A DNA stretch of 17,763 nucleotides from Candidatus Latescibacterota bacterium (GTDB lineage Bacteria > JAAXHH01 > JABIQT01), in NCBI GenBank assembly GCA_018667995.1, contig JABIQT010000603.1, positions 1-17,763 on the forward strand, read 5' to 3'. A program made the position numbers and the translations under genes. Positions 1 through 17,256 of this stretch are shown one piece after another. The notes below the pieces were generated by a model. The model saw only the letters and a program-made list of their open reading frames with translations. It searched no databases and was not told where the DNA came from. Position 1 is the first letter of the stretch, and each line of letters opens with the position of its first letter.

Positions 1-53
1 CCTATGATAACTACCTGAATTCGGTGATGCGAGCCGCCGGGGAGGTGTCCTGA
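1..53 (+). CDS. C-terminal tail of the [2Fe-2S] subunit of a molybdenum hydroxylase (partial)
   Basis: Only the last 16 codons are inside the window. They read YDNYLNSVMRAAGEVS and end in TGA at 51-53. The TGA shares its last base with the ATG of the molybdopterin subunit (TGATG). In xanthine-dehydrogenase-family small subunits the protein ends shortly after the second cluster motif, C-x-C-T-G-Y, followed by a short amphipathic helix; the visible tail fits that ending. The call rests on this fit and on the usual small/large/medium gene order. The cluster cysteines and any twin-arginine signal lie upstream of the window. That missing N-terminus would decide whether the enzyme is cytoplasmic or exported. 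Confidence 0.72.
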   Translation, partial: YDNYLNSVMRAAGEVS

Positions 54-2452
54 TGGCACGATTAATTGGTAGAGACTTTACGCCTCCTGACGTGCAGGCG
101 AAGGTTACTGGAAAGGCGAAGTATTCCGAAGATTTCCGGGTTGAGGGAATGGTCTTTTGCCGAATACTGCTCAGTCCAATGCCTCACGCAAGAGTGACCC
201 GTCTCGACGTTTCCGCTGCACTAGAAATGGAAGGCGTCCTTGGTGTCTTGACGGCGGACGACGTGAGCGCACAGCCATCCCCACAAAACCCCATACTCAC
301 GAATGAACCACTCTACGTAGGAGACCCAATACTTGCAGTAGCGGCCGTTGATGAGCAGATAGCCTCGAACGCATTGGAGCAGATTCGTATTGAGTATGAG
401 CCTCTGCCATTTACGCTGGATCCACTTGAAAGTTTATATCCCGGTGGAACAGACGCGCGAGAGGAGGGCAACGTTCGCGATCGTCGGGAGGGATCCAAGT
501 CGGTCAAGTGGACGGCACGGGATTTTGCGGCAGCTGGAGAGGACAAGTGTCCGACAGGTGAGTCGGCGGCAGAATGGTCCTATGGGAATGTGGACGGAGG
601 ATTCAACAAGGCACGCGTGACGCTCGATGAGAGCTTCGTAAGTGCCAGTAACCCGCACATGTCCATGGAGCCACGGTCTGCCATGGCGTACTGGGAAAAC
701 GGCAAGTGCTTCCTGCACGGATCGACCCAGAGCCAGAGTTTCGTGATTCCGGGATTGGCTGCTTACATCGGCGTAGAACCAAAAGATCTGGTGTATGTAT
801 CCGAATTCTGCGGCGGTGGCTTCGGCTCAAAGGGTGGTGCATATCCTGCCTTGGCTATTCCGGCACTCATGTCCAAGAAAATAAGCCGGCCAGTCATGAT
901 GCGGATAAACCGAGCTGAAGAGTACTTTCTCGGTTCGGCCAGATGCGGCTTCCAAGGGCGTATCCGCATGGGCTTTGATCGTAGAGGGCGAATTAAGGCC
1001 GTGGATCTCTATATCGTCCAGGACAACGGGGCGTACTCCGGATTTTCAGATTGGTCATCCGCAGGCGACGCTGTCTCCCTGGTATATACACCCGAGGCTA
1101 TGCGGTTTCGGGGTATACCTATTTATACGAATACCCCTATGAGGGGCGCCCAACGGGGTCCCGGCCAGAACCAGATTGCATGTATGGTTGAACCCCTTCT
1201 GGACAAGGCTGCTGAGCAACTGGGTTTGGACCGGCTTGCCATTCGTAGAATCAATGCGCCAGACAGCAAATCGAAGTACAGTGACGAGCGTAGCCCGGTC
1301 ACCAGTGCCTATCAGAAGGAGTCCCTTAACATAGGCGCCAAGGCGTTTGACTGGCCGGCGCGAAAGAGGCGGGCTCGACGCAGAAACGGATCCAAGGTAA
1401 TCGGAGTGGGTGTGGGTCAGGCGTTTCACCCGGCAGGTTCCAGTGGCTTTGACGGATTGGTCCACATCTCGCCCGATGGCAAACTGCATATCCACACAGG
1501 TGTCGGCAACCTGGGTACCTTCTCCCACAGCTCCACTTCTCGAGTTGCCGCGGAAGTGCTGGACTACGACTGGGACAACTGCATCGTCGAACGGGGCGAT
1601 AGTCGACGCGCTCTGCCCTGGAATCTGGGTCAATTCGGAAGTAACACCTCCTTCACCATGACGCGTACAAACTATGCGGCCGCCATGGACGCCCGACGGA
1701 AACTGCTCGAGATCGCAGCCAAAGATCTGGGTGGAGCGGCGCGCGACTATGATATCGCCGACGAGAAGGTATTTCGGAAAGCAGACAGGTCGAAGCAATT
1801 GACTTTCGCCCAAGCTGCGCAGCGTGCAATCGGGTTGGGTGGCGAATATGCAGGACATGAGTCAGCAGATGACCTTAATTCACTCACAAAAGCGGCTGTT
1901 GCCAGTCTGGCAGGTAAAGGTCTCGTAGGCGCAGCCAAAGACAATCTTGAAAAAAACGGAACCGTACCGGCACTCGCGACGGGCTTTGTAGAGATTGAGC
2001 TGGATCTGGAAACCGGGAAATTCGAGATTCTTGACTATTTGGGCATCTCCGATTGTGGTACAGTAATTCATCCTAAGGGCCTTGAAACACAGATAAAGGG
2101 CGGTGCGGTAATGGGTTTCGGTCTGGCTTCGCTGGAACGATATGTCTATGATCCCCAGAATGGCCTGCCGGCCAATCTGGCACTCTATCAATGCAAGCCT
2201 CCTTCATACCTTGATGTTCCACCGGCCATGAAGACGGGGGCTGTGAACAAATCGGATCCGCAGAATCCTGTAGGAGCCAAAGGGGCTGGTGAACCACTTC
2301 AAGGCTGTGCGGCTTCCGCCCTGCTCTGTGCAATATCCGACGCCCTTGGCGGACACTATTTCAACCGAACGCCAGTAACTCCTGATCAGATATTGAACGC
2401 TGCAGCGGGACGTCCGCAACCAGGTAAGTCTATGAAGACCAATACGGTATAA
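53..2452 (+). CDS. Molybdopterin-binding large subunit, xanthine dehydrogenase/aldehyde oxidase family
   Basis: This is the catalytic subunit of a molybdenum hydroxylase, a family that hydroxylates aldehydes, purines or N-heterocycles with water as the oxygen source. It is 799 residues long, close to the usual 750-810. Residues 1-120 form the N-terminal a/b-hammerhead domain. The cofactor loop GGGFGSKGG is at 254-262, the loop NTPMRGAQRGPGQNQ with conserved Arg368 is at 360-374, and the C-terminal GAKGAGEP is at 741-748. Glu747 matches the family's catalytic base. The CO dehydrogenase active-site motif (AYxCSFR) is absent, so a CO dehydrogenase is unlikely. The stretch at about 130-180 is longer and more charged than usual. 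The start overlaps the stop of the small subunit, and GGGGAGG lies 6 bases upstream. No signal peptide is seen, but this subunit rarely carries one. The substrate cannot be told from sequence. Confidence 0.93.
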   Translation: MARLIGRDFTPPDVQAKVTGKAKYSEDFRVEGMVFCRILLSPMPHARVTRLDVSAALEMEGVLGVLTADDVSAQPSPQNPILTNEPLYVGDPILAVAAVDEQIASNALEQIRIEYEPLPFTLDPLESLYPGGTDAREEGNVRDRREGSKSVKWTARDFAAAGEDKCPTGESAAEWSYGNVDGGFNKARVTLDESFVSASNPHMSMEPRSAMAYWENGKCFLHGSTQSQSFVIPGLAAYIGVEPKDLVYVSEFCGGGFGSKGGAYPALAIPALMSKKISRPVMMRINRAEEYFLGSARCGFQGRIRMGFDRRGRIKAVDLYIVQDNGAYSGFSDWSSAGDAVSLVYTPEAMRFRGIPIYTNTPMRGAQRGPGQNQIACMVEPLLDKAAEQLGLDRLAIRRINAPDSKSKYSDERSPVTSAYQKESLNIGAKAFDWPARKRRARRRNGSKVIGVGVGQAFHPAGSSGFDGLVHISPDGKLHIHTGVGNLGTFSHSSTSRVAAEVLDYDWDNCIVERGDSRRALPWNLGQFGSNTSFTMTRTNYAAAMDARRKLLEIAAKDLGGAARDYDIADEKVFRKADRSKQLTFAQAAQRAIGLGGEYAGHESADDLNSLTKAAVASLAGKGLVGAAKDNLEKNGTVPALATGFVEIELDLETGKFEILDYLGISDCGTVIHPKGLETQIKGGAVMGFGLASLERYVYDPQNGLPANLALYQCKPPSYLDVPPAMKTGAVNKSDPQNPVGAKGAGEPLQGCAASALLCAISDALGGHYFNRTPVTPDQILNAAAGRPQPGKSMKTNTV

Positions 2453-2467
2453 AAAGGGAGACAGGGC

Positions 2468-3457
2468 ATGCCAAAGGACGTAATGGCAAACTTCGAGCTG
2501 TTCCAGCCGGCCGACATCGCCAACGCACTGGACTTGCTTGATCGATACGGTGACGAAAGCTGGATCATGGCCGGAGGCCAGGACAGCTTAGACTGGTTTA
2601 AGGATCGCGCGAAACAACCAAAGGCAGTGATCGACATAAATGGCATCAACGAGTTAAAAGGCGTACGAGAAACAGGCGACGGTATTGAGATCGGTGCCTT
2701 GACCACCCTGACGGAGGTTCTGGCAGCCCCAGTTATCCAGGCTAAATACGGCCTACTGGCAGAAGCCGTCTCCCACGTCGCCAGTCCCCAGATTCGGAAT
2801 GTGGGCACCATTGGGGGAAATATCTGCCAGGACACTCGTTGTTGGTACTATCGATATGGACTGGACTGCTATCGTATGGGCGGGAATACCTGCTATGCGG
2901 ATACCCCGGAGGGCATAGATCGAGAACACTGCCTGTTTGGAGCAGACCGGTGTGTGGCCGTATCACCTTCGGACGCTGCGCCCGCACTCGTGGCGTTGGA
3001 TGCCCAGGTAGTTATCATTAATACCGAAGGCGAAAAGACCATACCCATAGAAGAATTCTTCATTGGTCCTGATATCGATATCACGCGTATGACAGTTCTG
3101 CAACCGGGGGACATTTTGAAGAGCATACGCATTCCCGCAACATGGTCCGAGGCTCGATTCTATTTCGAGAAGGTGGCAGATCGGAATACCTGGGATTTCG
3201 CGCTCGTTAACATAGCCTCAGCCATGAAAGTCGATGGTGACGTGATATCCGATATCCGGATGGCCATCGGTGGCGTAGAGTGTGTGCCGAAACGAATGTC
3301 CGTGGTGGAGGGCATCGTAAAGGGATCCGCGCCCGATAATGAAACCGCTGATCGCGCCGCGGGATCGGCCAGCAGAGGCGCCACGACACTCAACTTTAAT
3401 GAATTCAAAGTGCCGCTCATGGAAAATCTGGTGAAGCGAGCCATCCGGGACAGTTAA
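2468..3457 (+). CDS. FAD-binding medium subunit of the molybdenum hydroxylase, with a cysteine-rich insert
   Basis: This subunit takes electrons from the [2Fe-2S] clusters onto FAD. FAD-binding segments MAGGQD (34-39) and GTIGGN (113-118) are clear, and the C-terminal CO-dehydrogenase flavoprotein domain covers about 225-325. Between them lies an insert with Cys120, 125, 134, 142, 155 and 162, including CWYYR at 125-129. In the E. coli periplasmic aldehyde oxidoreductase PaoABC, the homologous insert of PaoB holds an extra [4Fe-4S] cluster, and 4-hydroxybenzoyl-CoA reductase has a comparable one. A [4Fe-4S] cluster is therefore likely here, though the exact ligands are not proven. AGGGAG lies 7 bases before the chosen ATG; an internal ATG at codon 6 is less well placed. 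The gene starts 15 bases after the large subunit, and its TAA shares one base with the next ATG. Confidence 0.92.
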   Translation: MPKDVMANFELFQPADIANALDLLDRYGDESWIMAGGQDSLDWFKDRAKQPKAVIDINGINELKGVRETGDGIEIGALTTLTEVLAAPVIQAKYGLLAEAVSHVASPQIRNVGTIGGNICQDTRCWYYRYGLDCYRMGGNTCYADTPEGIDREHCLFGADRCVAVSPSDAAPALVALDAQVVIINTEGEKTIPIEEFFIGPDIDITRMTVLQPGDILKSIRIPATWSEARFYFEKVADRNTWDFALVNIASAMKVDGDVISDIRMAIGGVECVPKRMSVVEGIVKGSAPDNETADRAAGSASRGATTLNFNEFKVPLMENLVKRAIRDS

Positions 3458-3615
3458 TGGAATTCCTCCGCTACAGTAGAGATGCCTGGGGACAGACAGT
3501 CCTCGAAGGCATGTCGTGGGATCTTTTCTGGTACTTTGTGGGTGCCGGCGGCGCGTTTATCTTGCTCCACATGGTTTATATGCGTCTGGTGAACCAGAAA
3601 AAGGGGCATGAATGA
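3457..3615 (+). CDS. 52-residue single-span membrane protein, possible small subunit of the complex
   Basis: This small gene begins inside the stop of the FAD subunit (TAATG) and ends inside the start of the cytochrome b gene (ATGA), so its translation is probably coupled to both. The protein has a polar N-terminus (MEFLRYSRDAWGQ), an aromatic entry (WDLFWYF, 21-27), one hydrophobic span at about 22-42, and a basic tail (RLVNQKKGHE). The basic tail suggests a cytoplasmic C-terminus. One histidine (His38) sits inside the span. I do not recognise a family. From its place between the hydroxylase and the cytochrome, I infer an anchor or docking subunit. The reading frame is open and fits the operon exactly, which argues for a real gene; the role is a guess. 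Confidence 0.72.
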   Translation: MEFLRYSRDAWGQTVLEGMSWDLFWYFVGAGGAFILLHMVYMRLVNQKKGHE

Positions 3616-4298
3616 CGGTGGTAGAAACCACATTACCGGAGGACGGCAGTCAGGAGAAGCATGTTGCCCGTCACAGCCTCACCACACGGCTTAATCACTG
3701 GCTCATTGCAGCCAGCGTCATAGCCTTGATTCTTTCCTCATTTCTGCCCATTCTTGGAATCAAATTTGCGTGGGTGACCATTCATTGGGTTACAGGTCTC
3801 GCTTTCACCGCTTCCATCGTTTTCCATACGGTCTACGCATTGCTGTATCAAGACTGGAGGACCATGTGGATCAGAGCAGCGGAATTCAAAGATGTAATCG
3901 CCTCCATGGCTGGGCGCCTGGAGATGCTGAAGGTACCACCCGGCAAATACTGGCTCATGCAAAAAGTATATCACCACGTGATCACCTTGTTCGGCATCAT
4001 AGTCATCATTACAGGGATACTGATGATGTACCGAATTGATTCGTCATTCTGGGATCGTGATCCCTATTTCCTGTCCGCAGAAATATGGGGAATAGTATAT
4101 GTGCTTCACGGATTCGCGTCTCTGTGCTTTGTCCCCATGTTGATGATGCATATCTACTTCGCCATCAGGCCGGAGAAGCTGTTTTATACCCGCTCCATGA
4201 TCAAAGGGTGGATCACGAAAGATGAATACTTGTCACATCACGATCCGAAAGTATGGGTGCTGGACCAAGAGAGCGATCCTGAGGAGCAAAAGGAATGA
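3612..4298 (+). CDS. Diheme cytochrome b subunit, FdnI/b561-like membrane anchor
   Basis: This integral membrane protein of 228 residues has four hydrophobic spans at about 30-48, 54-78, 121-140 and 156-185. It resembles the gamma subunit of formate dehydrogenase-N and the b-type cytochromes of Ni-Fe hydrogenases, which hold two b hemes and reduce quinone. Likely heme ligands are His29 (in TTRLNHW), His72 or His58 in span 2, and His166 and His180 in span 4. The 14-residue gap between the last two matches the gap between the two span-4 ligands in FdnI. The gene overlaps the small membrane protein before it and the unknown gene after it (ATGA). The position directly after three hydroxylase subunits suggests that it takes their electrons to the quinone pool. 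Such a partner is unusual for this enzyme family. Confidence 0.87.
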   Translation: MTVVETTLPEDGSQEKHVARHSLTTRLNHWLIAASVIALILSSFLPILGIKFAWVTIHWVTGLAFTASIVFHTVYALLYQDWRTMWIRAAEFKDVIASMAGRLEMLKVPPGKYWLMQKVYHHVITLFGIIVIITGILMMYRIDSSFWDRDPYFLSAEIWGIVYVLHGFASLCFVPMLMMHIYFAIRPEKLFYTRSMIKGWITKDEYLSHHDPKVWVLDQESDPEEQKE

Positions 4299-4684
4299 CT
4301 GAGCACATAGAATCAGGCTGGGCAGATCGGGTGGAAGCTATAGAGGCAGGTTATGAATTCATGCTGGCCTATGCAGCACAGGGCAGAGAGAACGATGATC
4401 CAACATCCCAGATCAGGCAGTTCCTCGAGGGAATGTATACGGCTCTCGATGGTTTGGCTGAGGTGGGTAAACAGGCTGCCACCCATAAAAACGTCTTGGG
4501 CAGTGAAGCCTTCCTCGAACTAATCGCGTCCGATGGTAAGAAGACCCGGGCAGCCCTGGCCCTGGTAATCGCTCAAGACAACGTCAGTTCCCAGCTGATC
4601 GATAACCTGAACGCTTCGATTCATGTCCGGGCTCTGCTTACCGATCTCTTTCTAATTGACGAAATTCTCAAACAGTCCCCCTAA
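4295..4684 (+). CDS. 129-residue helical protein of unknown function, last gene of the hydroxylase operon
   Basis: The start overlaps the stop of the cytochrome b gene by four bases (ATGA), so it is very probably co-expressed with the hydroxylase. The protein appears almost wholly alpha-helical, soluble and acidic. It has no cysteine, no signal peptide, no membrane span and no motif I recognise. Alternating stretches such as ALDGLAEVGKQAA and ASIHVRALLTDLFLIDEIL suggest a small helical bundle. A dedicated assembly chaperone or a regulatory subunit would fit the position, since many molybdoenzyme operons end with one. It does not look like an XdhC/PaoD- or TorD/NarJ-type chaperone, which are longer. 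I do not assign a function. Confidence 0.75.
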   Translation: MTEHIESGWADRVEAIEAGYEFMLAYAAQGRENDDPTSQIRQFLEGMYTALDGLAEVGKQAATHKNVLGSEAFLELIASDGKKTRAALALVIAQDNVSSQLIDNLNASIHVRALLTDLFLIDEILKQSP

Positions 4685-4720: not shown

Positions 4721-5941
4721 ATGGCGCCGAATTCATCACACTGGGCGATTTGGTTACTAATCAACCTGGTATTCACACTGCCTCTATCAGTTACAGCGCA
4801 GGAAGAATCTCTTCCCGTGGTCAGGATTGACCGTATTCCTACATCACCCGCTTTTGCCGGGCAGACACGAGCGCCTGCAGCCAGAGAATCTGCCTACAAG
4901 GTGGAATCCGTAGTTTCTGAGCTTTCCTTCCCGTGGGCATTCGCCTTTCTCCCCGATGGTGATATCATAATCGTCGAGCGCCGGATTGGCCTCAGGATTT
5001 TCGGTGGGGATGGAACGCTCTCTCCCCCGTTGAGCGGCATACCAGCAGCCTCTGAGTACCCGGACTATCCATCATTTGGATGGTTCGACGTGGCGTTGGA
5101 TCCTGACTTTCAGACCAATCGATTACTGTATTTCTCATATTATGCGGCGGACGAGAATGATCCTGAAGCGGCAGGTACCGCCACGGTGGCACGTGCAAGA
5201 TTACGCGAAGATAAGATGGGTGTGGAGAATCCTGAAGTTGTCCTCCGTGGCTTTGGCACTCAGGAAATCCACTTCTCCCCGAATGGCAGTCTTCTCGTAT
5301 CCGGCGCCGGTGACTTCAACGTCGACAATCCCCAGGATCCCGCCAACGCCAACGGAAAGCTACTGCGCGTCCGGGCAGATGGTTCCGTGCCTGATGACAA
5401 TCCGTTCCGCTCGAAAACCGGAGCGATGCCGGAAGTGTTTACTGTGGGACACCGAGACATTTCTGGAATTGATACGAATCCCGTGACTGGCGATGTCTGG
5501 ATATCCGAACACGGTCCCCGCGGTGGAGACGAGTTGAACATTATCCGATCTGGAAAGAACTATGGATGGAAGGTTATCTCATACGGTACAGATGATTCGG
5601 GGAAACCAATTGGCAATGGCGAGGCCACAGCGATAGGCATGGAGCAAGCGGTTTATTTCTGGCGGCCGTCCATCGCGCCATCAAGCCTCTCATTCTACGA
5701 AGGGGAGATGTTTCCGGAATGGCAGGGAAGCGTTTTCGTGGGCGCACTGTCGGGCGCACACCTGACCAGGCTGGTGATCAGCAATAATCGGGTAGTCGGG
5801 GAGGAACGCCTGCTGGTAGATCGCGATGAGAGGATTCGTGCCGTCAAGGCCGGACCGGACGGAGCCCTGTATGTCCTGACCAATGAAGCCTCGGGCGCAC
5901 CACGTGGGACTGCGGAACTGTTGCGCCTCACGAAACCATAG
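4721..5941 (+). CDS. Secreted PQQ-dependent sugar dehydrogenase-like beta-propeller, altered active site
   Basis: This 406-residue protein belongs to the soluble aldose sugar dehydrogenase (YliI/Asd) family, six-bladed propellers that oxidise sugars with PQQ in the periplasm. A signal peptide is visible at 1-27 (hydrophobic 8-25, ending VTAQ). Family motifs include LSFPWAFAFLPDG (68-80), DVALDPDF (123-130), HGPRGGDELN (264-273), YGWKVISYG (281-289), MFPEWQGSVFVGAL (330-343) and RIRAVKAGPDGALYVLT (371-387). The segment that in active members reads about HxGGR just before the F-x-P-D-G strand reads FGTQE here (178-182), so the usual catalytic His is missing. The protein may use other chemistry or only bind a ligand. 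AAGGAG lies 9 bases upstream of the ATG. The gene begins 36 bases after the hydroxylase operon and may be read through from it. Confidence 0.88.
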   Translation: MAPNSSHWAIWLLINLVFTLPLSVTAQEESLPVVRIDRIPTSPAFAGQTRAPAARESAYKVESVVSELSFPWAFAFLPDGDIIIVERRIGLRIFGGDGTLSPPLSGIPAASEYPDYPSFGWFDVALDPDFQTNRLLYFSYYAADENDPEAAGTATVARARLREDKMGVENPEVVLRGFGTQEIHFSPNGSLLVSGAGDFNVDNPQDPANANGKLLRVRADGSVPDDNPFRSKTGAMPEVFTVGHRDISGIDTNPVTGDVWISEHGPRGGDELNIIRSGKNYGWKVISYGTDDSGKPIGNGEATAIGMEQAVYFWRPSIAPSSLSFYEGEMFPEWQGSVFVGALSGAHLTRLVISNNRVVGEERLLVDRDERIRAVKAGPDGALYVLTNEASGAPRGTAELLRLTKP

Positions 5942-6087: not shown

Positions 6088-8748
6088 CTATTCGTAGTTT
6101 AGTGTCTCTACGGGATTACTCAGAGCTGCTCTGAGTGCCTGGTGCGCCATGGTGACCAGGGCGATCACAAAAACGATAAGGCCGCCAATTATGAATGGCC
6201 CCACCTCAAAATCTATCCGATATGCAAAATCTGCTAACCACAAACCATGCATGATGTAATAGGCGCCGGGCCAGGCGATTACATTTGCTATCAGCACTAA
6301 GAAAGTGAATTCCTCCGAGAGCATCCTCATAATTGTGGTACCTGACGCACCAAGAACCTTTCTGACACCGATTTCCTTCGTCCTTTGCTCTGCGATGAAA
6401 GACACCATACCGAACAATCCAAGGCATGCGATAAACAGACCCAGTCCAGCAAAAATCCCCATAATCCGGGAGAATTGATCTTCGGCCAGGTACTGATTGT
6501 TAAAATCGTCGTCGAGGAAGAATGAATCAAAGAGAGATTCTGGAAATAGACGCCGATAGATGGTCTCGACGGAAGCTATCGAGTCATGGAGCCCGATGGT
6601 ACTGACCGTTAGAGTGATATATCGAAAGTCCTCATTCATGTGGAAGATTCCGACCGGCTCGATCACATCTTGAAGCCCCTTGATGTGGAAATTTCTGACC
6701 ACCCCTACAATGGGGGAACGATTATTCCCTATGGTCTTCCCAATTGCCTCGTCTGGTGAGTTCCAGCCGAAGGTCGTGACTGCTGCTTCGTTGATGACAA
6801 ATCCTCTTCCATGATCTCGTGACCAAGTATTCCCGGAAATCAGCTCGATTCCGAATTCAGAAAGAAAATCATGGTCCACCTGAAAGCAGTTGACCATTTG
6901 CGTATTCTCAGCCTCTTCTCCTGAAGGCCACAGTCGCCATAGGTACATCCACCGCCCCGGTACGCTTGAAGATGCAGTGGCCCCGGTTATCGAGTTCTGC
7001 TGTAGAAATTCGTTCTTTATCCGTTCGTGATTCTCTTGGGTCATGGCATTGTCCGGGATTTTCAGGACGAGCTTCTGCTCACTTTGAAATCCCAACGGAC
7101 GACTCTTCATATACTCTATCTGTTGGTAAAAGATGATCGTTCCTATGACCAGGATGATCGAGATAGCGAATTGACCCACCACGAGAACCTTCCGCATCAG
7201 GATCCTTCTAGCGCCACCTCGAAACGACCCTTTCAATACCCCCGCGGGTCGAAAGCCGGACAAATAGAATGCAGGATAGCTCCCCCCCACAATACCAGTA
7301 CCAATGGCCAGAATGAGAAGCCCCATCAGGATTCTCTGATCCACTATGTCGGCGGGAGTGAACTGCAGGCCTGTCAGGTTATTGAAATAGGGCATTGAAG
7401 CTGCCACCATAATCAAGGCGATTACCGTAGCCATCGTGGACATCAGAAGTGATTCCGCAAGAAACTGACAGATCAGCTGCCAACGTAGTGCGCCCACAAC
7501 TTTACGCAGGCCCACCTCGCTGGCTCTCACTGCCGCCCGCGCAGTTGTAAGATTCGTAAAATTCATACAGGCAATTGACAGAATGAGTACGCCTACGACG
7601 CAGAAAAAGTATACGTACTGGGGATTGCCCGGATTACCCAGTTCCCAGTTCAAATGGGAATAGAGGTGGATATCCGGCAAGGGCTGTAAAAAGCTCAGGA
7701 ACTCTATCCCCCGACCATTTACATCTTCGGAAATATACTGATGCGCCAGCCTACTGATTCGGTCCTCAAATACGTCCCGATCGATTCCGGAAGCTAACTT
7801 AACATAGGTGGGCACGTTCATTGGTGAATCCCAGCCCAGATCCATCCCCTCAACCTGTGAGAGAGTTTCCCAGGAGACGAGTATACCAAATCTCACATGC
7901 GTATTCATTGGCGGATCATCCACTACGCCTGTTATCTCACAATCGAACCGCCCCGCCATTCTCGAATCGATCTGAATAGTCCTACCTACAGGATTCTCGG
8001 CTCCGAAGTACTTCTCAGCCATAGCCGCCGTGAGCACACCAGTGTTCGGACGCTGGAGCGCGGTCGTAGGGTCCCCACGGAGCCAAGATATGGTAAACAG
8101 GTTGGAGATATCCGGCTCTGAATACAAGATTCCGTCTTCGTGAAATACTTCCTCTCCGGTTCGCACGGGAGAAGTGGCTTCCTTATGCAATCGTAGGGCA
8201 TATTCAACTTCAGGAAAATCAGTACGCAGGGTGGGTGCAAGCATCAGGAAATTTGCCGCAAAGTCGTTTCTCTGCCCATCCTGACTCATGGACTTAGCCA
8301 CTCGAAATACCCGGTCGGCATCCACATGATACGAGTCATAATCCAATTCGAAGTTGACGTATAGAAAGATGAGGATACAGGACGCTAGACCGACCGCGAG
8401 GCCAGATATGTTTATGATAGAATGCCCCGCATGACGCCTCATCTTCCGAAAGATATGCCTCCAGTAATGAGCGAGTAACGGCGGCGACCACGGATTGGGT
8501 TGCCAGGCTGGCCTACCACTGATACGGCGTGTATCTGTCTTATAGAAATCCGCAGCTATGGTATCGACAGATCCCAGGGCAGCTTCCGACTGTTGGAATG
8601 CTTCCTTAATATCGCATCCACGCGCCATGCGGGATTCAATATCATCTCTTAGATGGGACTCCAGCTCGATTATATAACCATCTTCGAAGGATGGGTTTTT
8701 CCGTACATTCTTGCGCCAACGTTTGATGGCGCTTTCCAGGCTAAACAT
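6088..8748 (-). CDS. MacB/FtsX-like ABC transporter permease with N-terminal prefix domain
   Basis: This large inner-membrane permease has two FtsX modules. With the start at 8748 it has 886 residues. Residues 1-75 form a charged helical prefix without membrane spans (AIKRWRKNVRKN, ELESHLRDDIE), like the permease prefix domains of Acidobacteriota-type transporters. Span 1 is at about 110-132, a MacB-like extracytoplasmic core at 133-375, the first FtsX module at 380-505 (ending GSYPAFYLSGFRPAGVLKG), another span near 522-542, and the last FtsX module at 765-880 with AEQRTKEIGVRKVLGA. GGAG lies 9 bases before the ATG at 8748. An ATG at 8763 is in frame but has a weaker site, and the frame runs open to 8913 only because it shadows the regulator gene. 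It follows the PadR gene in one operon. No ATPase is nearby, so the partner must be encoded elsewhere; the substrate is unknown. Confidence 0.9.
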   Translation of the reverse strand: MFSLESAIKRWRKNVRKNPSFEDGYIIELESHLRDDIESRMARGCDIKEAFQQSEAALGSVDTIAADFYKTDTRRISGRPAWQPNPWSPPLLAHYWRHIFRKMRRHAGHSIINISGLAVGLASCILIFLYVNFELDYDSYHVDADRVFRVAKSMSQDGQRNDFAANFLMLAPTLRTDFPEVEYALRLHKEATSPVRTGEEVFHEDGILYSEPDISNLFTISWLRGDPTTALQRPNTGVLTAAMAEKYFGAENPVGRTIQIDSRMAGRFDCEITGVVDDPPMNTHVRFGILVSWETLSQVEGMDLGWDSPMNVPTYVKLASGIDRDVFEDRISRLAHQYISEDVNGRGIEFLSFLQPLPDIHLYSHLNWELGNPGNPQYVYFFCVVGVLILSIACMNFTNLTTARAAVRASEVGLRKVVGALRWQLICQFLAESLLMSTMATVIALIMVAASMPYFNNLTGLQFTPADIVDQRILMGLLILAIGTGIVGGSYPAFYLSGFRPAGVLKGSFRGGARRILMRKVLVVGQFAISIILVIGTIIFYQQIEYMKSRPLGFQSEQKLVLKIPDNAMTQENHERIKNEFLQQNSITGATASSSVPGRWMYLWRLWPSGEEAENTQMVNCFQVDHDFLSEFGIELISGNTWSRDHGRGFVINEAAVTTFGWNSPDEAIGKTIGNNRSPIVGVVRNFHIKGLQDVIEPVGIFHMNEDFRYITLTVSTIGLHDSIASVETIYRRLFPESLFDSFFLDDDFNNQYLAEDQFSRIMGIFAGLGLFIACLGLFGMVSFIAEQRTKEIGVRKVLGASGTTIMRMLSEEFTFLVLIANVIAWPGAYYIMHGLWLADFAYRIDFEVGPFIIGGLIVFVIALVTMAHQALRAALSNPVETLNYE

Positions 8749-8765
8749 AGTAACCATCTCCATAG

Positions 8766-9104
8766 TTATTTCAGTGCCGGTAACGGTTCCCAAAGTTTCA
8801 GCATGGCCTCGTGCACATTTAGCCACTGCTTCCTTTCCGCAGCCAACTCGGTCCGCCCAGTATCGGTAATCGTATAGTACTTGCGCGGGCGGGTTCCATC
8901 CGAGACCTTCCATTGAGATACAATGAGTCCCTCTCTCTCAAGACGATGAAGAACTGGATACAGCATCCCGTCGGACCACTCCATAGTACCTCCTGAAATG
9001 CCCTTCACTCTCTGGATAATCTCGTATCCATAATTCTCGCCACTGAAAAGAATCGAGAGGATTATTGGCCTGGTTGACGCTGCCACTAATGTTTTAGAAA
9101 TCAA
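8766..9104 (-). CDS. PadR-family transcriptional regulator
   Basis: This small winged-helix regulator is typical of the PadR family: AASTRPIILSIL, NYGYEIIQRV, then SDGMLYPVLHRLEREGLI (the recognition and wing region), then PRKYYTITDTGR, and a short C-terminal dimer helix. I prefer a TTG start at 9104 because GAGGTG ends 4 bases before it and the resulting start (MISKTLVAAST) matches the usual short PadR N-terminus. That gives 112 residues. An ATG at 9116 and a GTG at 9122 are in frame but lack a ribosome site. The gene ends 2 bases before the first in-frame ATG (8763) of the permease, so the pair is one operon. In such pairs the regulator usually represses its own operon and responds to a small ligand or drug; that is family knowledge, not shown here. 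Confidence 0.9.
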   Translation of the reverse strand: MISKTLVAASTRPIILSILFSGENYGYEIIQRVKGISGGTMEWSDGMLYPVLHRLEREGLIVSQWKVSDGTRPRKYYTITDTGRTELAAERKQWLNVHEAMLKLWEPLPALK

Positions 9105-9247: not shown

Positions 9248-11659
9248 CTATTGTGGCCTGAGGGAGTTCACCGGATTCGCAGTGGCAGCCTTAAGAGCCT
9301 GATATCCGACCGTGAGCCATGCGATCACCATGGCAACGGCACCCGCAATGACGAAATTCCAGAGACTTAGTTCGGTATGGTATGCAAAGCTCGAGAGCCA
9401 CTGGTTCATGGCATAGTAGGCCAGAGGCGTCGCGATCACAAAGGCGGCGATGACCAGACCGGTGAAGTTTCGAGAGAGCAGACGGACTATATCTGGAACA
9501 GTGGCACCGAGGACCTTGCGGACACCGATCTCACGTGTTCGCTGCTCTGCCATGAAAGAGGCCAGTCCGAACAGACCCAGGCACGTAACGAGAATCGCGA
9601 ACGTAGCAAAGGCGCCAAAAACCTGCTCCAATTGCTGTTCCGCTTTATACAGATTATCGTAGTCATCATCCAGGAAGGTGAACTCGTATGGAAAATCGGG
9701 CAATACTTCCTGCCACTTGTCTTCTATGGCCGCCATGGCGCTCTGAACGTTGTCACCACGAATCCTGATAGACGCGTACCACAGGTTGCCTGGTGTAGAC
9801 GTTGCCAGAATTGCCAACGGTTGGATCTTCTGATGCAAGGACTTCATGTGGAAATCCTTAGCCACGCCGATCACCCTGGGCCCCGGCTGATTTGAGCCGC
9901 TGATCTTAAGCTCCTTGCCGAGAGGATCATCCAATCCGAGCTCCCGAACGGCTGTCTCGTTGAGAATTACGGCTTGCTGTTCATCGGTTCCAAACTCAAG
10001 CGAGAACTCGCGCCCACTCACCAGTTCTATGCCCATAGTCCGTACATAGTCGTAATCTGCCATAATGTACTGCATCGTGAAGTTGTCGTCCCCAATGGGA
10101 ATCGTGTTGATCAGCCCACCGGGCATACTGGAGGCCCCTGTAGCACCGAGTATGTCGGGATGTTCCACCACGGCCTTCCGGAACGACTCCTCGTATCTCT
10201 GAGATATAAAGATATTAGCCAGACGAATCGTGACGACGTTTTCCTTGTTGAATCCGAGCTTTCGGTTACGCACGTAATCCAGTTGACTATAGACAGTAGC
10301 TGTGCCCACGATCATGAGAATGGCCATGGAGAACTGCCCTACCACAAGAACCTGCCTGAGACGCGTGCTCGCCGCACCCGCTTTCATAGCGCCCTGCAAG
10401 ACCGCTACCGGCCTGAATGAGGAAAGGAAAACAGCCGGATAGCTACCGGAGAGAAATCCGACCAGGAGTACAATAGCAGCCAAACCAGTGATGAAGCGAA
10501 CATCCGTTATGTCGAGAACCAGTGTCTTGCCGGCCAGGCCATTGAAAGCTGGCAGCAGAAGATAACACAGCCCCACCGAGACCAGCATGGAGATAAACGC
10601 CAATATCATAGACTCACCGATGAACTGCCAGACCAGGTGACTACGGTTTGCCCCGACGACCTTTCGCATACCCACTTCCCGTGCACGGTTGGCGGATCGG
10701 GCTGTAGCGAGATTCATGAAATTGATACATGCTATTGCAAGGATGATAAAAGCCAGCGCGGAAAAAATGTACACGTACTGAATATCCCCATTGGCTTCCA
10801 TCTCAGCCTCAAGGGCGGAGTACAGGTGGATGTCCGGCATCGGCTGCAGCGTAGGTTTGAACTGGATTTCCCGCTGGCGAAGCCGATCCCCGAGGTAGCC
10901 ATCTATAAATGATGGGAGTTTTGCCTCAAGGTCGGAAGCTGAAGCGCCTTCGGCCAAGAGTAGATAGGTGTAGATAATCGTATTGGCGCCCATTTGACCG
11001 AAGCTGGGACTGTAGAGATTACCATACATATTCGCACCGGGCCCGGGCCCGAGCGATGAAAATGAAACCAGAAAGTCGTAATGAAAATGAGAGTTCCTAG
11101 GCATATCTTCAACAATGCCAGTTACAGTCAACATCAGGAAATCTTCCGCATTGAAGACTTTACCCATTGGATCTTCATCACCGAAGTATCGTTTGGCCGT
11201 AGACTCGTTTATCACCACACTGTTAGGGCCGTTCAAGGCCGTTCTGGGATTGCCCTGAACAAATGAGTAACTGAAGACATCGAATATCGTGGAATCCGCA
11301 AAGAAGAATCCCCGCTCCCAGAACTCTCTCTCCTCGTGCTTGATCAACCAGCGCGAATTGGGCGTCTTGAAACGCACCATATTGACTACTTCGGGGTAGT
11401 CCTTGACAAGCGCTGGCCCCCACGGCGGCGCCGTCTGAGCACTGAATGCATGATTGTCTCCGACCACTGTTTCATTGACGACACGATAGATCCGATCGGC
11501 GCGGTCATGATATCTATCAAAACTTAGTTCGTCTTGTACGTACAGGAGTATCAGGGTACAGCATGCCATTCCAATGGCTAGGCCAAGCACATTGATCAGT
11601 GTGTAACCCTTATGCTTGACGATGTTGCGTAATGCGACGGTAAGATAACTTCTAAACAT
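9248..11659 (-). CDS. MacB/FtsX-like ABC transporter permease (no prefix domain)
   Basis: This is a permease of 803 residues with the same layout as its neighbour but without the cytoplasmic prefix. Span 1 is at 20-41 (LINVLGLAIGMACCTLILLY), an extracytoplasmic MacB-like core covers about 42-290, the first FtsX module 295-415 (AREVGMRKVVGA, then SGSYPAVFLSSFRPVAVLQG), a span lies at about 435-458, and the last FtsX module at 680-800 (AEQRTREIGVRKVLGA). The start at 11659 is chosen because GAGAGG lies 9 bases upstream and the protein then begins MFRSYLTVALRN, the usual start for this family; the frame is open 18 codons further but without a site. It is clearly a paralog of the neighbouring permease and ends at its own terminator. 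No ATPase, membrane-fusion protein or outer-membrane partner is in the window. Confidence 0.9.
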   Translation of the reverse strand: MFRSYLTVALRNIVKHKGYTLINVLGLAIGMACCTLILLYVQDELSFDRYHDRADRIYRVVNETVVGDNHAFSAQTAPPWGPALVKDYPEVVNMVRFKTPNSRWLIKHEEREFWERGFFFADSTIFDVFSYSFVQGNPRTALNGPNSVVINESTAKRYFGDEDPMGKVFNAEDFLMLTVTGIVEDMPRNSHFHYDFLVSFSSLGPGPGANMYGNLYSPSFGQMGANTIIYTYLLLAEGASASDLEAKLPSFIDGYLGDRLRQREIQFKPTLQPMPDIHLYSALEAEMEANGDIQYVYIFSALAFIILAIACINFMNLATARSANRAREVGMRKVVGANRSHLVWQFIGESMILAFISMLVSVGLCYLLLPAFNGLAGKTLVLDITDVRFITGLAAIVLLVGFLSGSYPAVFLSSFRPVAVLQGAMKAGAASTRLRQVLVVGQFSMAILMIVGTATVYSQLDYVRNRKLGFNKENVVTIRLANIFISQRYEESFRKAVVEHPDILGATGASSMPGGLINTIPIGDDNFTMQYIMADYDYVRTMGIELVSGREFSLEFGTDEQQAVILNETAVRELGLDDPLGKELKISGSNQPGPRVIGVAKDFHMKSLHQKIQPLAILATSTPGNLWYASIRIRGDNVQSAMAAIEDKWQEVLPDFPYEFTFLDDDYDNLYKAEQQLEQVFGAFATFAILVTCLGLFGLASFMAEQRTREIGVRKVLGATVPDIVRLLSRNFTGLVIAAFVIATPLAYYAMNQWLSSFAYHTELSLWNFVIAGAVAMVIAWLTVGYQALKAATANPVNSLRPQ

Positions 11660-11686
11660 CTGTGCAGACCTCTCAATTATGAATCT

Positions 11687-11692
11687 ATTGTA
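11687..11692 (-). promoter_or_regulatory. Candidate -10 box of the second permease gene
   Basis: The minus strand reads TACAAT (5 of 6 to consensus), 27 bases upstream of the ATG at 11659. This would give a leader of about 20 bases that contains the GAGAGG ribosome site. The matching -35 position (around 11710-11715) has no good consensus and touches the palindrome at 11714-11727, so the promoter may depend on a regulator. Confidence 0.35.
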
Positions 11693-11696
11693 GTTA

Positions 11697-11727
11697 CGGT
11701 GAATGAACCACACATCACCGAGGTGAT
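11697..11727. promoter_or_regulatory. Palindromic operator-like site with three GGTGA half-sites
   Basis: ATCACCGAGGTGAT at 11714-11727 is a palindrome with 6-base arms around a 2-base centre. A third half-site, CGGTGA, lies at 11697-11702 and forms a second dyad with TCACCG (11715-11720). The site overlaps the expected -35 region of the minus-strand permease gene, where a repressor or activator would be expected to bind. The binding protein is unknown. Confidence 0.4.
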
Positions 11728-13001: not shown

Positions 13002-14876
13002 ATGCCAAAGGGATATAATGGAACAATCCTTCGCGTTAATCTGACGTCTGGTACGATTTCCACCGAAACCCCAGACGAGACGCTATTCAGGCGCTATCTC
13101 GGCGGAGGCGGCTTGGGAGCATATTACCTCTATAAAGAGGTACCACCTGGCGCGGATCCACTGGGGCCTGAAAACAAGCTCATCTTCATGACCAGCGTTA
13201 TAAACGGAGCACCGCTCTCAGGAGCCAATCGTTATTCTGCCGTCGCCAAATCGCCTCTGACAGGCGGATATGGTGAAGCCGAAGCAGGCGGATATTGGGG
13301 GCCGGCACTCAAGTCCGCGGGCTACGATGGTATTATCATCGAAGGACAGTCCGATGCACCCGTATACCTGGACGTCAATGAAGGATCCTGCGAAATAAGG
13401 GATGCGGCCCAATATTGGGGCCAACTGGCGGATGCCGTACAACATGGACTCGAGGAGGAGATCGGAGATAAGAAAATCCGGGTGCTCCAGACGGGAATCG
13501 CCGGTGAAAACCTCGTACGGTACGCGGCACTCGTCAATCAGCAACGACACTTCCACGGAAGAGCCGGCCTTGGTGCCGTTATGGGATCAAAGAAACTCAA
13601 GGCCATTGTCTGTCGCGGCAGAAAGAGAATGGAGCCCGCTTCCAAGGAAGATGCTCAGGGCGTGTTCAAATGGTTCAAAGAGACCTACGATAAGGCAGCC
13701 GACCCGCGACACGACATGGGTACGGCCCAGGGCGTGCGACACCTCGATGCGGACGGAATTCTACCCACCTATAATTTCCGCGATGGTAGTTTCGCTGATG
13801 CGCTCGAAATCAGTGGAGAGAGGATGCGCGACACCATCCTAGTAAACCGTGGCACCTGTCATGCATGCGTCGTGGCCTGCAAGAGAGAGGTCGCCGTGGA
13901 GGGCACCGACATTACTGCCGAGTATGGTGGACCTGAATACGAAACCATAGCCGCTAACGGCTCCCTTCTCGGTATCGGCAACCTGAAACACATTGCCGAG
14001 GCCAATAAGCGCCTTGCTCAGTATGTGCTCGATTCCATATCCACCGGGGCGGTCATCGCCTTCGCAATGGAGTGCTATGAGAAAGGCATCATTACCGATG
14101 AGGATACCGGGGGCATCGCGCTCAACTGGGGCGACGAATCGGTGGCACTTCAACTGATCGACATGATTGCGAAACGTGAGGGTATCGGTGATATATTGGC
14201 TGAAGGTGTCAAGCGCGCCGCTGACCGATATGGTAACGGAGCCGACCATTATGCCATGCACGTTAAGGGCCAGGAACTACCCATGCACGAACCGAGAGGC
14301 AAGCGGAGCCTGGCATTGGCGTATGCCACATCTCCTACCGGCGCGGACCACATGGAGGCGCCACACGACCCCTTCTACGAGTCGTTCGATCCGCAGGGGT
14401 TCAGCGCGCTCTCGTCACTGGGGCTGATCGAACCAGTTGATCGGCTTGACATGGGACCTAAGAAGGTGAAAGCCTATTACTACACACAATTGGTCTGGAC
14501 ACTTTACGACACCGTGGGTATGTGCGACTTTGTGGGTGAACCGATCAACGACCTGTTGATCGACAAACTCGGCGTATATGTCAGTGCAGTTACGGGTTGG
14601 AATGTCAGTGTCTGGGAAATGCTAAAGGTGTCGGAGCGCACAAATATGTTGAAACGCGCCTTCAACGTGCGTGAAGGATTCACTCCCGCGGATGACAATC
14701 TGCCGGAACGTATGTTCGAACCTCTCATGGCTGGAGCTCTTGAAGGCGTTGCGATTGATAAGGGCGAGTTCGCCGAAATGCTGAATCTCTATTACGACAT
14801 GACCGGATGGGATCGTGAGACTGGATTTCCCACCAAAGCGAAATTGATCGAATTGGACCTGGAATGGCTGGCTTAA
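13002..14876 (+). CDS. Tungsten-type aldehyde:ferredoxin oxidoreductase
   Basis: This 624-residue protein belongs to the AOR family, which oxidises aldehydes to acids with a tungsten (or molybdenum) bis-pterin and a [4Fe-4S] cluster, usually with ferredoxin. The N-terminal domain (about 1-210) carries pterin-contact motifs such as LGGGGLGAYYLY (33-44) and GEAEAGGYWGPALKSAGYDG. The cluster ligands are Cys286, Cys289, Cys293 (CHACVVAC) and Cys508 (DTVGMC). In Pyrococcus furiosus AOR they are 288, 291, 295 and 494. Glu312 or Glu314 (GPEYET) and His450 (GADHMEAPHDP) match the active-site Glu and His of that enzyme. GGGAG lies 10 bases before the ATG. No ferredoxin, tungstate transporter or pterin gene is adjacent, so the electron partner is unknown. 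The gene is apparently full length and intact. Confidence 0.94.
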   Translation: MPKGYNGTILRVNLTSGTISTETPDETLFRRYLGGGGLGAYYLYKEVPPGADPLGPENKLIFMTSVINGAPLSGANRYSAVAKSPLTGGYGEAEAGGYWGPALKSAGYDGIIIEGQSDAPVYLDVNEGSCEIRDAAQYWGQLADAVQHGLEEEIGDKKIRVLQTGIAGENLVRYAALVNQQRHFHGRAGLGAVMGSKKLKAIVCRGRKRMEPASKEDAQGVFKWFKETYDKAADPRHDMGTAQGVRHLDADGILPTYNFRDGSFADALEISGERMRDTILVNRGTCHACVVACKREVAVEGTDITAEYGGPEYETIAANGSLLGIGNLKHIAEANKRLAQYVLDSISTGAVIAFAMECYEKGIITDEDTGGIALNWGDESVALQLIDMIAKREGIGDILAEGVKRAADRYGNGADHYAMHVKGQELPMHEPRGKRSLALAYATSPTGADHMEAPHDPFYESFDPQGFSALSSLGLIEPVDRLDMGPKKVKAYYYTQLVWTLYDTVGMCDFVGEPINDLLIDKLGVYVSAVTGWNVSVWEMLKVSERTNMLKRAFNVREGFTPADDNLPERMFEPLMAGALEGVAIDKGEFAEMLNLYYDMTGWDRETGFPTKAKLIELDLEWLA

Positions 14877-15057: not shown

Positions 15058-17256
15058 ATGTCTGCCCACGTAAAACCGCACAACGGCACACCTACTCTGT
15101 TCATTGACAACAAGCCTACATTTGCAGGCCTCATGTGGGCTAGTGCCCCGGAACCGGACCACTATGCACTCGCTCCTATTGTGCGCAGCTATGCCGAATC
15201 AGGCATCCACCTATACACTTTCGATGTGGGTACCCAATCCACAAGAGAATGGCGGGGTCCGGGTGAGGGTTACGAAGGGGATTTTGACTTCTCAGAAACC
15301 GAAGCGCGCTTCAATCAGGTGCTTGAGGTCGATCCGGAGGCGCGCTTTCACCTGCGTGTGCACTTGGATCATCGAGGGACCTGGTGGACCGACGCGTATC
15401 CCGATGAGTGTGAACTGACTTCGGACGGACAGCGTTTCTTTCCGTCCTTCGCGTCCACCATATGGAGGGAACAGGCAAAGGATTTCCTCAAGGAGTACAT
15501 TGCCCACTTTGCGTCAATCGGACTCACTGACCGCATCATATCCTATCAGACTGGGGCCGGAGGTACCGGAGAATGGGTCAAGGGTGAGGCCTCGATGGCC
15601 TCACGTTGTGCGGACTATAGTCCACCTATGCGACGGTGGTTTCGTCAATGGCTGCGTGAACACTACAACAATGACATCACCGCCTTCCGCGATGCCTGGA
15701 ACGATACTGATGTGCGTTTCGACGATGCAGCAGTCCCGTCGCAAGCGGAGCAACTGTTCTCGACGGAAAGGATCTTTCGCGACCCAGGAACGGAACAACC
15801 GGTCATCGACTATTTCCGATCCCTGGCTGACCTCTGCGCGGATCTGCTGATCGATTTCCATCGTACGGTGAAAGAGGCCACGGACAATAACGCATTGGCG
15901 GGGGCATTCTTCGGATACATTATGGAACTCGCGTGGAATGCGAGCTTCTTCGGAGTCGAGCAGGAAAGCGAGTATGGCACGACACAACGAAGTGGCCATC
16001 TGGGTCTCGGGCGCCTTCTCCGTTCACCTTACACGGATTTCATCGTCAGTCCGTTCAGCTACGGCTTCCGCGGCATCGGAGGTCATGGCTGCGCTATGCC
16101 GCCTTCGGAAGCTATGAGAGTTCACGGCAAGCTCTACATGTTTGAAGATGATACACGGACTTATCTCAATCCGCCCGATGCCGGGTTTGGGCGCGTTACC
16201 ACCCTCGAAGACAGTATTACAGTGCTGCAACGAAATTTCGCTGAAGTCTTGACCCGAGGCCAGGCCATATGGTGGTTGGGGGGCTCAGCTGGAAATCCAC
16301 ACATTGACGCTAACACAGAGCCCGCTTTCGGCCCTTTACTAACGCAGTTCCAGAAATTGGGCACCTTCGGTCTGGAACTCGACCGTAGCCCTGCTTCAGA
16401 AATCGCAGTTATCCTTGACGATGAGAGCTATTTCTACCAGACCGTGCGCAACGATTTGGATCTGCCATTGGTGTTTCAACAGCGCCTCTGGGGTCTGCCC
16501 AAGCTCGGGGCACCCGCCGACTACTACCTTCTGGATGACCTGATCGAGGGGAAGATGCCTCCCTACAAACTCTACATCTTCCTGAATGCCTTCAGACTGG
16601 ATCGAAATCGGCGCGAAATGCTGGCCCGTGAACTCCGGCGTGATGGACGCGTTGCCGTGTGGATCTATGCCCCAGGGTATATCGAGGATGAGCCGGGACT
16701 CGAACATATGACCGACCTGACGGGATTCGAATTTGGTCGTGGCGACCATCCGTGGGGTCCGTTGATGCATATCACCGACTTTACCCATCCCATTACAGCT
16801 GGCTTACCCCAGGACCTGATGTGGGGTACCAACAGCGTCCTGGGCCCGGTATTCCACCTGGAGGATCCGGCCGCTGAAGTTTTGGGACAGGTCGTTTATT
16901 CTCAGGGACGATGTCTTCCCGGATTGGGTGTGAAAACCTTTGAGGACTGGACATCGGTTTATATCGCAGCCCCCAACATCCCAGCTCCGGTTTTGAGGGG
17001 CCTCGCTCGGTTTGCGGGGGTTCATCTATATAGTGATCAGGGGGACGTGCTCTACGCGTCAACGCAGTTGCTGAGCGCCCACTCGGTTTCGGGTGGACTG
17101 AGGACGTTCGTACTTCCCCATCAGGTAGAGGTAGTCTTCGATCTATACAAAGAAGAAGTACTCGGCAGGGACGTAAATCAATTTTCCGTGACACTTTCTC
17201 CAGCTTCTACAAGCCTGTATTACACCGGAGCAGCGAATCTACTGGAACGTCTATAA
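15058..17256 (+). CDS. GH42-like glycoside hydrolase, cytoplasmic, substrate unknown
   Basis: This 732-residue protein has no signal peptide and probably acts in the cytoplasm. Residues about 10-445 look like a (beta/alpha)8 barrel. GGTGEW (168-173) offers Glu172 as acid/base, and KLYMFEDDTRT (358-368) offers Glu363 as nucleophile. The two glutamates lie about 190 apart, close to the spacing in GH42 beta-galactosidases. Residues 446-660 resemble the Rossmann-like trimerisation domain of GH42 (SEIAVILDDESYFYQT; YKLYIFLNAFRLDRNRRE; then GRVAVWIYAPGYI), followed by a C-terminal beta domain (660-732). Overall similarity to classical GH42 is low, so it is an outlying member or a related uncharacterised family. 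The sugar cannot be told. AGGAG lies 7 bases before the ATG; a nearer ATG at 15054 is out of frame. The gene lies 181 bases after the oxidoreductase gene. Confidence 0.8.
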   Translation: MSAHVKPHNGTPTLFIDNKPTFAGLMWASAPEPDHYALAPIVRSYAESGIHLYTFDVGTQSTREWRGPGEGYEGDFDFSETEARFNQVLEVDPEARFHLRVHLDHRGTWWTDAYPDECELTSDGQRFFPSFASTIWREQAKDFLKEYIAHFASIGLTDRIISYQTGAGGTGEWVKGEASMASRCADYSPPMRRWFRQWLREHYNNDITAFRDAWNDTDVRFDDAAVPSQAEQLFSTERIFRDPGTEQPVIDYFRSLADLCADLLIDFHRTVKEATDNNALAGAFFGYIMELAWNASFFGVEQESEYGTTQRSGHLGLGRLLRSPYTDFIVSPFSYGFRGIGGHGCAMPPSEAMRVHGKLYMFEDDTRTYLNPPDAGFGRVTTLEDSITVLQRNFAEVLTRGQAIWWLGGSAGNPHIDANTEPAFGPLLTQFQKLGTFGLELDRSPASEIAVILDDESYFYQTVRNDLDLPLVFQQRLWGLPKLGAPADYYLLDDLIEGKMPPYKLYIFLNAFRLDRNRREMLARELRRDGRVAVWIYAPGYIEDEPGLEHMTDLTGFEFGRGDHPWGPLMHITDFTHPITAGLPQDLMWGTNSVLGPVFHLEDPAAEVLGQVVYSQGRCLPGLGVKTFEDWTSVYIAAPNIPAPVLRGLARFAGVHLYSDQGDVLYASTQLLSAHSVSGGLRTFVLPHQVEVVFDLYKEEVLGRDVNQFSVTLSPASTSLYYTGAANLLERL

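Follow-up and report, generated by a model that had tools for sequence, protein, structure and literature searches.

The known electron acceptors of xanthine-oxidase-family molybdenum hydroxylases are NAD, oxygen, ferredoxin and cytochrome c. The membrane aldehyde dehydrogenase of acetic acid bacteria, a member of this family that lies on the outer face of the inner membrane and is linked to respiration, uses a cytochrome c subunit. 4-Hydroxybenzoyl-CoA reductase (HCR; HcrABC) of Thauera aromatica reduces CoA esters and has, to our knowledge, neither a signal for twin-arginine translocation (Tat) nor a cytochrome b. The trimeric PaoABC enzyme of Escherichia coli owes its export by Tat to the small subunit alone, PaoA carrying PaoB and PaoC with it (PMC4273604), and its terminal acceptor has been reported as unidentified (PMC3958847). 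Here we describe a module at the start of contig JABIQT010000603.1 of Candidatus Latescibacterota bacterium (assembly GCA_018667995.1; 17,763 nt, analysed at full length and called the window below), in which the [2Fe-2S] subunit (S), the molybdopterin-binding catalytic subunit (L) and the FAD subunit (F) of such a hydroxylase are encoded together with an FdnI-like cytochrome b and two small proteins of 52 and 129 aa. The window is the entire contig from an incomplete genome, and the contig edge at position 1 cuts the S gene.

The module shares with PaoABC the three-subunit xanthine-oxidase-family enzyme, the Tat signal on the [2Fe-2S] subunit and the cysteine-rich insert of the FAD subunit, but the window L scores 236 bits against a PaoC equivalog cut-off of 1180 bits, and the described parts of PaoABC include no cytochrome subunit. 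HcrABC (1rm6) contains the closest solved L and also has an FAD subunit with an extra [4Fe-4S] cluster, whereas the window L and F reach only 352 and 187 bits against the HCR alpha and beta equivalog cut-offs of 994.55 and 404.55 bits. The large subunit of the aldehyde dehydrogenase of acetic acid bacteria (8gy3_C) is a weak sequence match. FdnI of formate dehydrogenase N (1kqf_C) is likewise a cytochrome b of four helices, and its His on helices I and IV have counterparts here; however, the window cytochrome scores 46.4 bits against a cut-off of 115.85 for TIGR01583 (formate dehydrogenase gamma), window-type cytochromes carry extra invariant His, the lone helix is here a 52-aa protein of its own or is fused to the N-terminus of the cytochrome instead of being part of the [4Fe-4S] subunit FdnH, and the partner enzyme belongs to a different molybdenum enzyme family. 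TIGR01583 is matched by all 36 aligned cytochromes, the best scores among the matches listed staying below the cut-off. The module is best classed as a PaoABC/HCR-like hydroxylase that carries an FdnI-like quinone module, and searches of open-licence full texts turned up no account of a xanthine-oxidase-family enzyme that has an FdnI-like cytochrome b.

We consider it likely that the module is a membrane-attached respiratory molybdenum hydroxylase, in which a Tat-exported S-L-F enzyme hands its electrons through the FdnI-like cytochrome to quinone. The gene set is real and conserved, and its products probably form a functional complex. When a named genome collection was scanned with the cytochrome alignment, 43 loci came out, all from metagenome-assembled genomes (MAGs) of Gemmatimonadota, Acidobacteriota, Alpha- and Gammaproteobacteria and one unclassified bacterium, with the contig of genome G001 appearing a second time as L011; neighbours were tallied by hand from the locus tables. 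The 129-aa gene lies directly downstream of the cytochrome gene in 43/43 loci and the F gene directly upstream in 40/43, and the order S-L-F-cytochrome-129aa is found on one strand in 34/43. The loci that depart from it are cut by contig ends (L016, L031, L033, L037), are without L (L019, L038) or are lone cytochrome/129-aa pairs (L035, L040, L041). The closest relative is G001 (locus L009, CAJXCW010000206, an uncultured-bacterium MAG), which has the complete order S-L-F-52aa-cytochrome-129aa, then a weak HD-domain protein (17.2 bits against a Pfam cut-off of 22) and then a second L; in genome G012, L-F-52aa-cytochrome stand on one contig and the 129-aa gene on another. A misjoined contig as the source of the gene order was rejected, as independent genomes from several phyla show the same order. 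A scan of viral contigs with the cytochrome returned no relative. No recurring neighbours outside the module were recognised except in near-identical loci, the picture being blurred by spurious open reading frames (ORFs) in high-GC DNA, and the neighbours therefore give no clue to the substrate.

Co-occurrence was counted in an even sample of 298 genomes from the phylum of one Gemmatimonadota locus. The cytochrome and the 129-aa protein are each found in 66/298 genomes, and these are the identical 66. F (E <= 1e-80) occurs in 66 genomes, 64 of them common to the cytochrome set, and L (E <= 1e-150) in 67, of which 65 are common when the sets are compared by eye. In this sample, 63/67 cytochrome matches have the 129-aa gene no more than 300 nt away and 63/67 have F as close, and several of the exceptions sit near or at the end of a contig. 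Simple co-occurrence probabilities are inflated by shared ancestry; nonetheless, the genes stay together across several phyla. The sequence-only reading of the window had named loss of adjacency in related genomes as the sign that the cytochrome and the small genes are separate from the hydroxylase; the comparison of the 43 loci, with the cytochrome/129-aa pair in the same 66/66 genomes, went in favour of linkage. That reading had also described six genes in a near-continuous block with overlaps of 1-4 bases and one 15-base gap. The coordinates agree (ORFs at 3-4684, overlaps of 1, 1, 4 and 4 bases and a single gap of 15), and five of the ORFs are complete in the window, but the S gene is present as its last 16 codons only.

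The likeness of the cytochrome to FdnI, also proposed from the window, was upheld both by sequence match and by predicted fold. The protein belongs to the b561 family (Pfam Ni_hydr_CYTB), and its family profile matched FdnI 1kqf_C alone among PDB sequences (E 6e-9). In the fold comparison, for which an AlphaFold2 model of a fused cytochrome was used (mean pLDDT 82.8), FdnI was again the first match (Foldseek E 9e-6; VIA Z 14.9, 2.9 A, 191 residues), followed in VIA by superoxide oxidase 5oc0 of E. coli (Z 12.8, 158 residues) and then by the hydrogenase-1 cytochrome. The second place of 5oc0, together with the lone cytochrome/129-aa pairs that have no S-L-F nearby, could be taken to mean that the cytochrome, instead of being the acceptor of the enzyme, is an independent cytochrome b561 linked to quinol, such as a superoxide oxidase, which happens to share the operon. 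We regard this as quite improbable, because the best match is a formate dehydrogenase subunit and not an oxidase, because the cytochrome occupies the same genomes as the 129-aa protein with F and L nearly always there too, and because both genomes with stand-alone cytochrome pairs have L and F elsewhere.

Seven His of the cytochrome are invariant in the 36 aligned sequences (window numbering 21, 29, 58, 72, 121, 166 and 180), and all but His21 are helix His, each conserved in 36/36. His29, His58, His166 and His180 align with four His of FdnI, His58 having been matched by eye where the alignment slips; we take these four FdnI residues to be its heme ligands. By sequence and predicted fold, the protein is a four-helix cytochrome with His at both FdnI-type heme sites, and its positively charged loops agree with the FdnI topology. 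FdnI has Phe in place of His121 and no His 14 residues past its helix II His. His72 and His121 lie near the cytoplasmic side, as does His38 of the 52-aa protein, and their positions make an additional heme or a site for quinone possible there. The conserved helix His bear as well on the proposal that a soluble periplasmic carrier is the true acceptor and that the cytochrome merely anchors the enzyme. Other exported relatives do use cytochrome c, as in the membrane aldehyde dehydrogenase 8gy3_C, but six invariant helix His would be needless in a mere anchor, and no cytochrome c gene was recognised among recurring neighbours; we hold a soluble carrier to be extremely unlikely.

The two small proteins, which had been called unknown from the window, fared differently, although neither of them has a family in Pfam or NCBIfam. 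In 24 of the 36 aligned proteins, the 52-aa sequence makes up the N-terminal end of the cytochrome, and in the other 12 it is a separate gene, as in the window. The fused form is a single clade on the cytochrome tree (support 100/97), and a single fusion or split therefore explains the distribution. Because of this fusion to the cytochrome in one clade, the 52-aa protein is better regarded as a subunit of the cytochrome than as an unknown extra. Its conserved features are an N-terminal WGQ..L....WDL followed by a hydrophobic helix with one His, which is kept in all 13 separate copies listed, and its loop charges put the N-terminus outside, in the periplasm, and the C-terminus inside. In formate dehydrogenase N, the FdnH helix region faces the periplasmic enzyme; by analogy, the conserved part of the 52-aa protein before the helix would face the periplasmic hydroxylase.

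The 129-aa protein received no such assignment. It has neither a signal peptide nor a membrane helix, and its AlphaFold2 model shows six helices with confidence (mean pLDDT 93.7). Its family gave scattered single matches in Pfam, no convincing PDB relative by sequence and no match in PHROGs. A function drawn from its fold matches was set aside, as these are generic four-helix bundles and their scores (Z 10-12) mean little for helical bundles. Its partner is probably the cytochrome, since the two stay together where S-L-F is elsewhere (L035, L040, L041), and it may act as a NarJ-like chaperone or as a peripheral subunit. The cytochrome NarI depends on NarJ to mature (PMC10609526). Two related genomes also have the 129-aa gene again, as a partial or second copy, a few kb past the module (L013:10457-10846 and L090:15271-15618).

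For the hydroxylase itself, the S remnant in the window reads YDNYLNSVMRAAGEVS before its stop codon, and 15/16 of its residues match the C-terminus of the L009 S (3918-4613), which is YDNYLNGVMRAAGEVS; the window's first codons are identified as the end of S by this same place and C-terminus. The L009 S has Fer2 and Fer2_2 domains and a weak TAT_signal match; of its own S, the window holds the last 16 residues only. The twin-arginine signal that had been anticipated on the small subunit is present in 36/36 readable S homologues, and 8/36, all of them among the proteobacterial and G001 relatives, also have a lipobox-like Cys. In L and F, no export signal of their own is visible. L contains the Pfam domains Ald_Xan_dh_C (E 1.5e-23), MoCoBD_1 (E 4.9e-55) and MoCoBD_2 (E 8.1e-46), and the active-site Glu, Glu747 of its GxGE motif, is invariant in 35/35 homologues. 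Several nearby positions vary, and the substrate may therefore differ between members of the family. F combines FAD_binding_5 and CO_deh_flav_C (Pfam) and was aligned to its nearest solved relatives, bacterial aldehyde oxidase 5y6q_B and HCR beta 1rm6_B, PaoB 5g5g_B being matched too. The PaoB-like cysteine-rich insert noticed earlier in F was borne out by C125, C134, C142 and C162, which are invariant in 39/39 homologues and form an HCR/PaoB-type [4Fe-4S] insert.

The nearest solved chain to L is HCR alpha 1rm6_A, with quinoline 2-oxidoreductase and PaoC also among the nearest. This relationship and the [4Fe-4S] insert common to HCR beta would fit the reverse direction, in which quinol electrons reduce the substrate, as HCR does with ferredoxin. 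However, the scores of L and F given above are far under the HCR cut-offs, an enzyme exported by Tat should find no CoA esters in the periplasm, and quinols are weak reductants for such a reaction; the reverse direction is in our judgement very unlikely.

For the preferred reading, that of a hydroxylase that reduces quinone through its cytochrome, we infer the following assembly, electron path, direction and division of roles. The S-L-F trimer would fold with its cofactors in the cytoplasm and be exported by Tat through the signal of S, with L and F carried along as in PaoABC. In the periplasm, L would oxidise a small molecule of the aldehyde or heterocycle type at a Mo centre with the conserved Glu of the family. 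Electrons would then pass from Mo over the two [2Fe-2S] clusters of S to FAD and the [4Fe-4S] cluster in the F insert, from there to a periplasmic-side heme (His58/His166), a cytoplasmic-side heme (His29/His180) and finally quinone. The one-helix protein, with its N-terminus outside, would dock the trimer on the cytochrome like the lone FdnH helix on FdnI, and the 129-aa protein may work with the cytochrome on the cytoplasmic side as an assembly chaperone or peripheral subunit. Several points speak against this reading. The L, S-L-F or cytochrome/129-aa genes stand apart in some genomes, so that adjacency is not universal; nearly all of the window's own S lies off the contig, and the Tat evidence comes from relatives; the model of the fused cytochrome is of low confidence at its N-terminal end (mean pLDDT 57 for residues 1-10); and the extra His (H72, H121 and H38) may make the analogy with diheme FdnI incomplete.

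Table 1. Genes of the module in the window
Feature	Position	Strand	Remarks and evidence
[2Fe-2S] subunit gene S, 3' end	3..53	+	16 codons + stop, frame 3; remainder off contig
Molybdopterin (catalytic) subunit L, 799 aa, xanthine-oxidase family	53..2452	+	Pfam, PDB relatives, conserved Glu747
FAD subunit F, 329 aa, four-cysteine insert for [4Fe-4S]	2468..3457	+	Pfam, PDB alignment, invariant Cys
One-helix membrane protein, 52 aa; WGQ..L.G.SWD N-terminal, H38 in helix	3457..3615	+	
FdnI-like four-helix cytochrome b, 228 aa	3612..4298	+	PF01292 E 2e-18, alignment of 36, FdnI 1kqf_C match
Soluble all-helical protein, 129 aa, adjoining the cytochrome gene	4295..4684	+	AlphaFold2 model, synteny, co-occurrence

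Beyond the module (Table 1), a glucose/sorbosone dehydrogenase-type gene with a signal-like N-terminus follows after 36 bases (4721-5941, + strand; GSDH E 1e-96). It is probably not part of the module, because the relative L009 has other genes at that place. Two large adjoining MacB/FtsX-type permeases (6088-8913 and 9248-11713, both on the - strand) come next. An aldehyde ferredoxin oxidoreductase (13002-14876, +; AFOR_C E 5e-127) represents a second type of Mo or W enzyme on the contig, and a 732-aa protein (15058-17256, +) has no Pfam match at E 0.001.

The genomes in which the genes stand apart also allow a wider reading, to which we give somewhat less than an even chance: one membrane module may serve several exchangeable Mo catalytic subunits encoded elsewhere, each with another substrate. 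The shared part, as proposed, would consist of the cytochrome, the one-helix protein and the 129-aa protein, and in some genomes also of S and F. The L038 genome has S-F-52aa-cytochrome-129aa together without L and two L genes far away, and in the L035 genome a single cytochrome pair, a single close F and four close L genes are spread over separate contigs. About 29/66 Gemmatimonadota genomes hold an additional F that is not beside the cytochrome; in the cases inspected, this F belongs to an S-L-F set that has no cytochrome with it, and most of these second copies are nearer to the window's F and L than the cytochrome-adjacent copies are. The gene counts fit a shared module, and it is their pattern that suggests one. 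If true, the module would be a shared respiratory socket for periplasmic hydroxylases.

Further catalytic-subunit genes were seen in several places. The second L of locus L009 (L009:10106-10589) probably continues on G001:C175. At L044:8032-10901, the module is followed directly by a [2Fe-2S] subunit and by another molybdopterin subunit, which differs from that of the module and begins with a twin-arginine-like stretch of its own. Catalytic-subunit genes that stand alone, with neither S nor F close by, are found at L075, L076, L077, L079, L083 and L084, in genomes whose cytochrome lies elsewhere; that of L083 adjoins a relative of gluconate 2-dehydrogenase subunit 3, and that of L076 is near a UGSC-family protein.

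A dedicated FdnI-like cytochrome b would make xanthine-oxidase-family enzymes primary respiratory dehydrogenases, like formate dehydrogenase N. As the acceptor of PaoABC, the best-studied exported relative, was reported as unidentified, the module offers a direct candidate for the type of acceptor, and two uncharacterised protein families are named with it. Because the gene set is present in 66/298 genomes of one phylum and in several other phyla, the module may be a common route by which uncultured bacteria gain energy from small molecules.

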